Below the pieces are notes generated by a model. That model was given only the letters and a program-made list of their open reading frames with translations, did no database searches and had not been told where the DNA came from. A DNA stretch of 64,000 bases from an uncultured Actinomycetes bacterium. Lineage in GTDB: Bacteria; Actinomycetota; Acidimicrobiia; Acidimicrobiales; RAAP-2. The DNA lies in contig CAIYAP010000006.1 in assembly GCA_903924205.1 (NCBI GenBank), positions 42,567 through 106,566 on the forward strand, written 5' to 3'. Of the stretch, positions 62,196 to 63,792 are shown piece by piece. The stretch's first letter is position 1; each line of letters starts with the position of its first letter. Made by a program: the position numbers and the translations under genes.

Positions 62196-62265
62196 GTGGG
62201 GACGGAGGGAAAAAAGTGGTGTAAAAGGGTGATAAGTGGTGTAAATGCCCACAAAGTGGTATGGT
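62196..62265 (+). promoter_or_regulatory. Candidate MraZ operator array and mraZ promoter region
   Basis: GTGG cores at 62196, 62216, 62236 and 62256, exactly 20 bp apart; the last three sit in AAGTGGT(G/A)T. Confidence 0.75.
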
Positions 62266-62284
62266 CTCCTCTGAGGAGGGGTCC

Positions 62285-62716
62285 ATGACATTGATGCGCG
62301 GTCGCTACGAGCAGAAGATTGACGCGAAGGGTCGCGTCGTCATTCCCTCGAAATACCGCGACGTCTTTGGCGGCCTCGCCAACATCACGATCTACGACCA
62401 GGGCTGTTTGTGGGTGGGGCCAAACAGCGCTTTCGAGAAGCAGTGGGAAGACGACATCAACGTCAAGGGCCCATTGTCGGAAGCTGAAAACAACCGTCGG
62501 CGACTCCTATTTTCGAACTCCACCGAAGTGCCAGTGGACGCCCAAGGTCGCATGCTCCTCAACGAACGCCAGCGTCAGCACGCGGGCATCGATCTCGACC
62601 AGCCCGTCGTCATCATCGGCGTGGGCGGCAACTTGGAAATTTGGAACCCTGAGCGACTTGACCGCGTCACCGCGAAACCGGCAGCCGAACTCAAGAGTTC
62701 TGAGGCCGACCAATGA
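62285..62716 (+). CDS. mraZ: Transcriptional regulator MraZ
   Basis: MTLMRGRYEQKIDAKGRVVIPSKYRDVFG; VPVDAQGRMLLNERQRQHAGID (two SpoVT/AbrB-like repeats); ATG after GAGGAGGGG. Confidence 0.96.
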   Translation: MTLMRGRYEQKIDAKGRVVIPSKYRDVFGGLANITIYDQGCLWVGPNSAFEKQWEDDINVKGPLSEAENNRRRLLFSNSTEVPVDAQGRMLLNERQRQHAGIDLDQPVVIIGVGGNLEIWNPERLDRVTAKPAAELKSSEADQ

Positions 62717-62770
62717 AAGGGGATGCCCACTCCCGTGTAAGGCGCTGGCCCTGGACCATGCGCAGCCTTC

Positions 62771-62848
62771 CGACCAACCCCAACGGTGATTTCTCCTCCG
62801 CCCTGCCGTTGGGTGTCGCACCGAGCCCCCACTCGGTGACGTTGGTCG
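62771..62848 (+). promoter_or_regulatory. Structured three-way-junction RNA leader of rsmH/mraW
   Basis: Stem A CGACCAAC(62771-62778)/GTTGGTCG(62841-62848); stem B CCCAACGG(62779-62786)/CCGTTGGG(62806-62813); stem C CACCGAG(62819-62825)/CTCGGTG(62832-62838); all perfect. Confidence 0.75.
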
Positions 62849-62859
62849 AAGGGCTGCAG

Positions 62860-63792
62860 ATGACCCAGGACTTCGTGCACGAACCCGTTCTCGCTACCGA
62901 AGTGGTGAACGCGATGGCCGTCGAGGACGGCATCATTGTCGACGCCACTTTGGGGGGTGCGGGGCATAGCGCCCTCCTTCTTGAGCGTTACCCCCACGTG
63001 CGGATCATCGGCATCGACCGCGACCCCATTGCTCGCGATGCGGCGCGCCGACGGCTTGCTCCGTATGGCGATCGAGCGACGGTCGTGGCAGGAGATTTCG
63101 CCTCCATGGGCGTATTGGTGCGTCCCTTAACTCACGACATGCCGATTCGCGGGGTCCTGATGGACCTCGGCGTCTCGTCACCTCAGCTCGATGACGGTGA
63201 TCGTGGATTCTCGTTTCGCTTTGACGCCCCCCTCGACATGCGCATGGATACGACACAAGGCAAGACTGCCGCCGAATACATAGCCACGGCCGATGTCGGC
63301 GAGCTGGCGGGCCTTTTTCGAGAGCACGGCGAAACTCGATTCGCGGGTGCCATTGCCCGCTCGGTTATCGGAGCAATGCCGACGACGACCTCGGAGTTGG
63401 TCTCGGCAGTGGAGCGTGCGGTACCGGCTGCGGCTCGCCGTCGCGGCCACGTCGCCACTCGCGTCTTTCAGGCTCTTCGAGTTGTCGTAAATGATGAAGA
63501 GGCGCAGTTGCGTGAGGGCCTGATGGCTGCGATTTCTCTGTTGGCCCCTGGCGGCGTTCTCGTCGTGATGAGCTATCACTCGGGCGAGGACAAGGTTGTC
63601 AAGAAGTTCATGCTCGAGGGCGAGTCGGGTGGCTGTACCTGCCCACCTCAGTTGCCCTGCGTGTGTGGCGCTGTCTCCACCTTGGACGTCGCGCGACACG
63701 GCGCCATCCTGGCGTCCTCCGATGAGGTCGACCGCAACCCGCGTGCTCGGTCCGCGCGTTTGCGCATCGCCCGCGTGAAGGAGCTCGCGTGA
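62860..63792 (+). CDS. rsmH: 16S rRNA (cytosine(1402)-N(4))-methyltransferase
   Basis: FVHEPVLATEVVNAMAVEDGIIVDATLGGAGHSALLLERYPHVRIIGIDRDPIA; GVLMDLGVSSPQLDDGDRGFSFRFDAPLDMRMD; ATG at 62860 chosen over 62713 on homology grounds. Confidence 0.93.
   Translation: MTQDFVHEPVLATEVVNAMAVEDGIIVDATLGGAGHSALLLERYPHVRIIGIDRDPIARDAARRRLAPYGDRATVVAGDFASMGVLVRPLTHDMPIRGVLMDLGVSSPQLDDGDRGFSFRFDAPLDMRMDTTQGKTAAEYIATADVGELAGLFREHGETRFAGAIARSVIGAMPTTTSELVSAVERAVPAAARRRGHVATRVFQALRVVVNDEEAQLREGLMAAISLLAPGGVLVVMSYHSGEDKVVKKFMLEGESGGCTCPPQLPCVCGAVSTLDVARHGAILASSDEVDRNPRARSARLRIARVKELA

Follow-up and report, generated by a model that had tools for sequence, protein, structure and literature searches.

In the E. 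coli thrS operator the substrate RNA of an enzyme is copied in the enzyme's own leader, beside the ribosome-binding site, and this mimicry of a tRNA anticodon has been proven experimentally. Leaders of ribosomal-protein genes (S15, S4, L20) are also known to copy rRNA sites, and such a leader may act on the gene whose product uses the site (PMC7247131); the survey of these leaders makes no mention of mraW, rsmH or methyltransferases. In actinobacteria, the spacer between mraZ and mraW can contain a conserved RNA, the mraW RNA motif (RF01746; Weinberg et al., 2010, PMC2864571), i.e., a long hairpin with a conserved C-rich loop, which the 2010 paper lists in Actinomycetales with no further discussion in its main text and which has been reported from RNA-seq of Corynebacterium (PMC3890552, PMC5784534).

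We have analyzed the same spacer in a member of the Acidimicrobiia, within a window of 64,000 nucleotides (the whole stretch of DNA considered here). The genes and the parts of the RNA given below by coordinate are on the forward strand. The two genes are mraZ (62285–62716) and rsmH (mraW), which runs from 62860 to 63792 if its homology-supported ATG is taken as the start and has homologues in 97 of 100 relatives. They are separated by 143 nt, as the original prediction had stated. The start of mraZ in the ORF track (62261) is probably wrong, the likely one being the ATG at 62285 (beginning MTLMRGRYEQKID), which is preceded by GAGGAGGGG at 62273–62281. Farther upstream (62207–62262) there are three repeats, AAGTGGTGTAAA, AAGTGGTGTAAA and AAAGTGGTATGG, with a spacing of about 20 bp, which look like MraZ-binding boxes by comparison with MraZ operators.

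Architecture and covariation of the leader RNA

Three perfect nested stems of 8, 8 and 7 bp had been recognized in the spacer, and their coordinates were confirmed: stem A (CGACCAAC, 62771–62778, with GTTGGTCG, 62841–62848), stem B (CCCAACGG, 62779–62786, with CCGTTGGG, 62806–62813) and the stem C hairpin (CACCGAG, 62819–62825, with CTCGGTG, 62832–62838), joined by junctions of 0, 5 and 2 nt. They are, however, only the core of the structure. In the fold of the spacer, stem A extends outward beyond one C-A mismatch, where GCAGCCUU (62762–62769) pairs with AGGGCUGC (62850–62857) and CAU (62757–62759) pairs with the rsmH AUG (62860–62862). The whole basal stem, which we call P1, has its 5' strand at 62755–62778 (comprising CAU, GCAGCCUU and the 5' strand of stem A, and supported also by class-wide pairing) and its 3' strand at 62841–62864. 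The 3' strand of stem A does end, as predicted, at the first G of the Shine-Dalgarno-like GAAGGG (62848–62853) and, because stem A continues into P1, both this motif, mostly paired, and the rsmH start codon are found inside a helix. The fold of 62717–62880 has an energy of -77.3 kcal/mol (z -4.35) that was equalled by none of 200 dinucleotide shuffles; the 92-nt interval originally considered gives a z of -2.28 when folded alone.

Stem B carries an apical loop (62787–62805) that is unpaired in the folds save for its closing bases and could be followed in a class alignment of 150 loops; its core, CUCCGCC (62796–62802), is nearly invariant both there and over the genus tree. Stem C is a more variable component. 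In the nearest relative (L032) a single change, A62820T, weakens it, so that its perfection is not conserved although the architecture is. Most congeners lack stem C altogether and have instead one long hairpin, while in other families it is present, often as GGGGAGACAUCCC. The element thus consists of a long basal stem (ca. 24 bp) and of stem B with its C-rich, almost unchanging apical loop, to which a third hairpin may or may not be added. We considered an intrinsic terminator and rejected it since no U run follows the stem.

For the comparison among relatives, spacers were taken from about 58 congeners and from other families. The genus alignment contained 44 distinct copies over 96 columns, was free of gaps and ended just behind the rsmH start codon. 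The null expectation for covariation came from 300 simulations over the RsmH-protein tree in which the number of changes of each column was preserved. The covariation across relatives that the original prediction called for was abundant and went beyond phylogeny, as expected for a structured cis-regulatory RNA: the summed G was 625 against a null of 99±19 (maximum 168), and 44 double compensatory changes were located on branches, where the null gave 7.4 on average and at most 15. Among the pairs that vary on both sides, 15 of 20 had p <=0.01. Standard pairs amounted to 92%, compared with 29–43% when the partners were slid, a percentage biased towards the structure because the structure tested had itself been derived, as an alifold consensus, from these 44 elements. 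However, an excess of the size found in G and in double changes is not explained by the choice of consensus alone. G-U cells outnumbered A-C cells (80 to 33), which fits an RNA made from the forward strand. Over the whole class (151 sequences, whose ends had been set either by pairing or by the model) standard pairing at the individual P1 pairs was 75–99%, and each pair occurred in several Watson-Crick types.

Distribution in the Acidimicrobiia and relation to the mraW RNA

We made a covariance model (R1) with 12 sequences belonging to other families, the window being excluded. It matches 62755–62864, which we take as the extent of the whole conserved element, at 45.6 bits (E 9e-7 with 270 kb searched), and this is its sole match in the genome of origin (E 5.6e-6). 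R1 matched 204 of 296 genomes of the class, i.e., 123 of 148 genera, normally at one place per genome. The class copies that were fetched lie between mraZ and rsmH, a fixed association with one gene, rsmH. The distance to that gene varies: the end of the element overlaps the rsmH start codon in the lineage of the window and in some others, and in many other families the element is located 25–116 nt upstream of the start.

We also read the spacers of 15 further class genomes, picked mostly from those without a listed R1 match. Four of them (L315, L316, L318 and L319), and L313 by eye, do have the element; most of the rest have a spacer of 55 nt or less, or no recognizable element. There are likewise a few congeners with short spacers that lack it. 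The L315 spacer has a further feature, a strong hairpin (GATCCGGCGGCCAG...CTGGCCGCCGGATC) with ACCCGTTTT behind it, which resembles a terminator and stands after the RNA element and before rsmH.

In the rest of the phylum R1 found nothing convincing, matches outside the class being marginal (E 0.095 or worse), and the element was seen in none of 40 spacers inspected from other actinobacterial classes. In three loci of other actinobacterial families (L265, L266 and L304) the spacer has, instead of the RNA element, an apparently conserved small open frame for a hydrophobic peptide (MLRKERVSTVGTLSRELGQGILLLAISGSTVGGLLGMVSIATRALGR in L266). The element is a new class-wide structured RNA of the Acidimicrobiia; our literature search found no description of an acidimicrobiial element of this kind.

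The original prediction had considered membership of the mraW RNA family, or divergence from it, and the likeness is real in several respects: the position upstream of mraW (rsmH) and behind mraZ, the phylum, and a long stem with a conserved C-rich loop. However, the RF01746 model had no match in the window between 61500 and 64000 at E values up to 10, nor in the relatives, and none of 148 class genomes reached the cut-off for membership (50 bits). The failure is mutual, as R1 does not match RF01746 members either. The loop of RF01746 members, ACUUCCCC on a long hairpin, is absent, the loop of the window being GAUUUCUCCUCCGCCCUG and a form found in the class ACUCCGCCCG, and RF01746 lacks a stem that closes on the Shine-Dalgarno sequence. 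Intermediates were sought in the 40 spacers of other Actinobacteria and none was seen. Membership was thus rejected by the model test in window, relatives and class alike, and that the element is a diverged member of RF01746 seems to us very improbable.

A reading frame through the leader

An in-frame extension of rsmH by 49 codons (62713–62859) starts with an ATG sharing bases with the mraZ stop codon (ATGA), and the leader could accordingly be nothing but coding sequence for the N-terminus of a longer RsmH, its structure being incidental. The frame is well kept. Of 58 congeneric loci, 56 have a spacer in the rsmH frame, with a start that overlaps the end of mraZ, and no stop interrupts this frame in any of the 44 aligned elements of the genus (the block being read from column 1), although the open frame is weaker evidence of translation than it appears because a fixed RNA sequence places the stops in the other frames.

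Against a purely coding leader are the compensatory changes described above, the behaviour of the third positions, and the presence of the same RNA outside the genus with mixed frames relative to rsmH. The changes per column at codon positions 1, 2 and 3 (with column 91 as the A of the ATG) were 4.71, 4.03 and 4.20, i.e., flat, and neither in these 44 elements nor in the comparison with L032 was there an excess at third positions in the leader. The mraZ-rsmH spacer of L032 is 97.9% identical at the DNA level, and the third positions of its leader are 96% identical versus 55% within rsmH. Hence the conservation by codon position that would have spoken for an extended RsmH did not appear, and the purely coding explanation was rejected; we can give it scarcely any credence. 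In its evolution the leader behaves as an RNA, and within the genus it can probably be read as protein too. Given the kept and open frame, an extended RsmH may be produced from 62713 besides the product of the ATG at 62860, and the true N-terminus of RsmH may lie at either ATG.

The apical loop and the control of rsmH

The seven consecutive positions of CUCCGCC are identical in 143–150 of the 150 class loops (95–100%), while the stems vary freely, and each column of the core changed 0–1 times over the genus tree. The class consensus of the loop is CCCCUACUCCGCCCG. RsmH N4-methylates C1402 of the 16S rRNA (PMC5053481, PMC13317604), and the class form of the loop, ACUCCGCCCG, is one base off the 16S sequence ACACCGCCCG. 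The latter is E. coli 1396–1405, which includes C1402. If the loop is an rRNA mimic, the C at 62801 is at the C1402-equivalent position, and this cytosine is kept in 147 of 150 class loops. A related pair, L036 and L038, has U in its place (CCGUC), providing natural variants of the loop. The assembly of the genome of origin has no 16S gene; the comparison was made with 16S genes from members of its order and family. With the class-wide loop profile, the RsmH target site ranked first among about 1500 16S positions, a rank that owes much to C-richness, since column-shuffled profiles left p values of only 0.02–0.05 for windows of 10–13 nt and about 0.2 for 17 nt. The target site was not always first when the genus-only profile was used, and the one mismatch falls on an invariant position of the loop (U for A1398). 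For these reasons, mismatch, genus-only ranks and marginal shuffled controls, we regard mimicry of rRNA as a lead and not as a result. The loop of the mraW RNA (RF01746) had no match to the C1402 site.

A control switch not described before is very probable, given a structure that is kept across the class, has no match to any Rfam family and covers the start signals of rsmH in this lineage. The explanation that we prefer, and hold with about as much confidence as doubt, is that of a cis-acting control RNA of rsmH whose loop is bound by a trans-acting factor, the best guess being RsmH itself in a negative feedback. Control of translation is suggested by the location and by the pairing of the Shine-Dalgarno motif and AUG in the lineage of the window. 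In that lineage direct initiation at the ATG at 62860 would be low unless the stem were opened, because P1 includes both signals; opening could come, for example, from ribosomes coming off mraZ by way of the overlapping start in ATGA, and a factor that kept the stem closed would reduce RsmH. The translational switch proposed in the original prediction is thus the natural reading where a covarying structure holds both signals, but occlusion of the Shine-Dalgarno sequence does not stand as the general mode of the element, given its position 25–116 nt upstream of rsmH elsewhere. Within the genus, the open frame also means that ribosomes may simply read through the element. The choice of RsmH as the factor is speculative and comes from the resemblance of the loop to the 16S sequence around C1402.

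Two other roles may be considered. The element might be a double-stranded processing site, for RNase III or a similar enzyme, that separates the mraZ mRNA from rsmH and the division genes, in which case the long stem is what matters. A basal stem of this length followed by stem B, lying behind the first gene of the cluster and before the second at any distance from the AUG, would suit such a site; RNase III, however, requires no invariant apical loop, and the near-invariance of CUCCGCC in 150 class sequences makes us think this reading unlikely. Alternatively, the loop may bind some factor other than RsmH (a ribosomal protein, an assembly factor, an S1-like protein or a small RNA) and in this way tie rsmH and the division operon to ribosome status. 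Its invariant C-rich sequence would suit such binding, and the copying of rRNA sites by ribosomal-protein leaders provides a precedent. Yet no candidate ligand was found, and the complement of the loop core (GGCGGAG) was present nearby 26 times versus 17.7 expected, with no clear excess, so that pairing of the loop with a conserved complement nearby was rejected and this second role seems unlikely too.

To return to feedback by RsmH, its most specific form is that the leader imitates the 16S decoding site as a decoy. RsmH would bind, and perhaps methylate, the C1402-equivalent cytosine of the loop and shut off its own translation, so that both the modification of rRNA and the cell-division genes behind rsmH would follow the supply of 30S subunits not yet modified. 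We offer this only tentatively, as a possibility well short of even likelihood. Such a leader would be like the thrS operator in carrying a copy of substrate RNA, and like the ribosomal-protein leaders in possibly imitating a site of the rRNA while acting on the gene whose product uses that site, but it would differ from the latter in that its gene codes for an rRNA methyltransferase and in that the apparent likeness to rRNA, judged from sequence, is short and marginally significant. If RsmH is the ligand, this would be a case of an enzyme that modifies rRNA being controlled through an imitation of the rRNA site on which it acts. It would also offer an analogy by which the role of the mraW RNA, for which we know of no explanation so far, could be tested.
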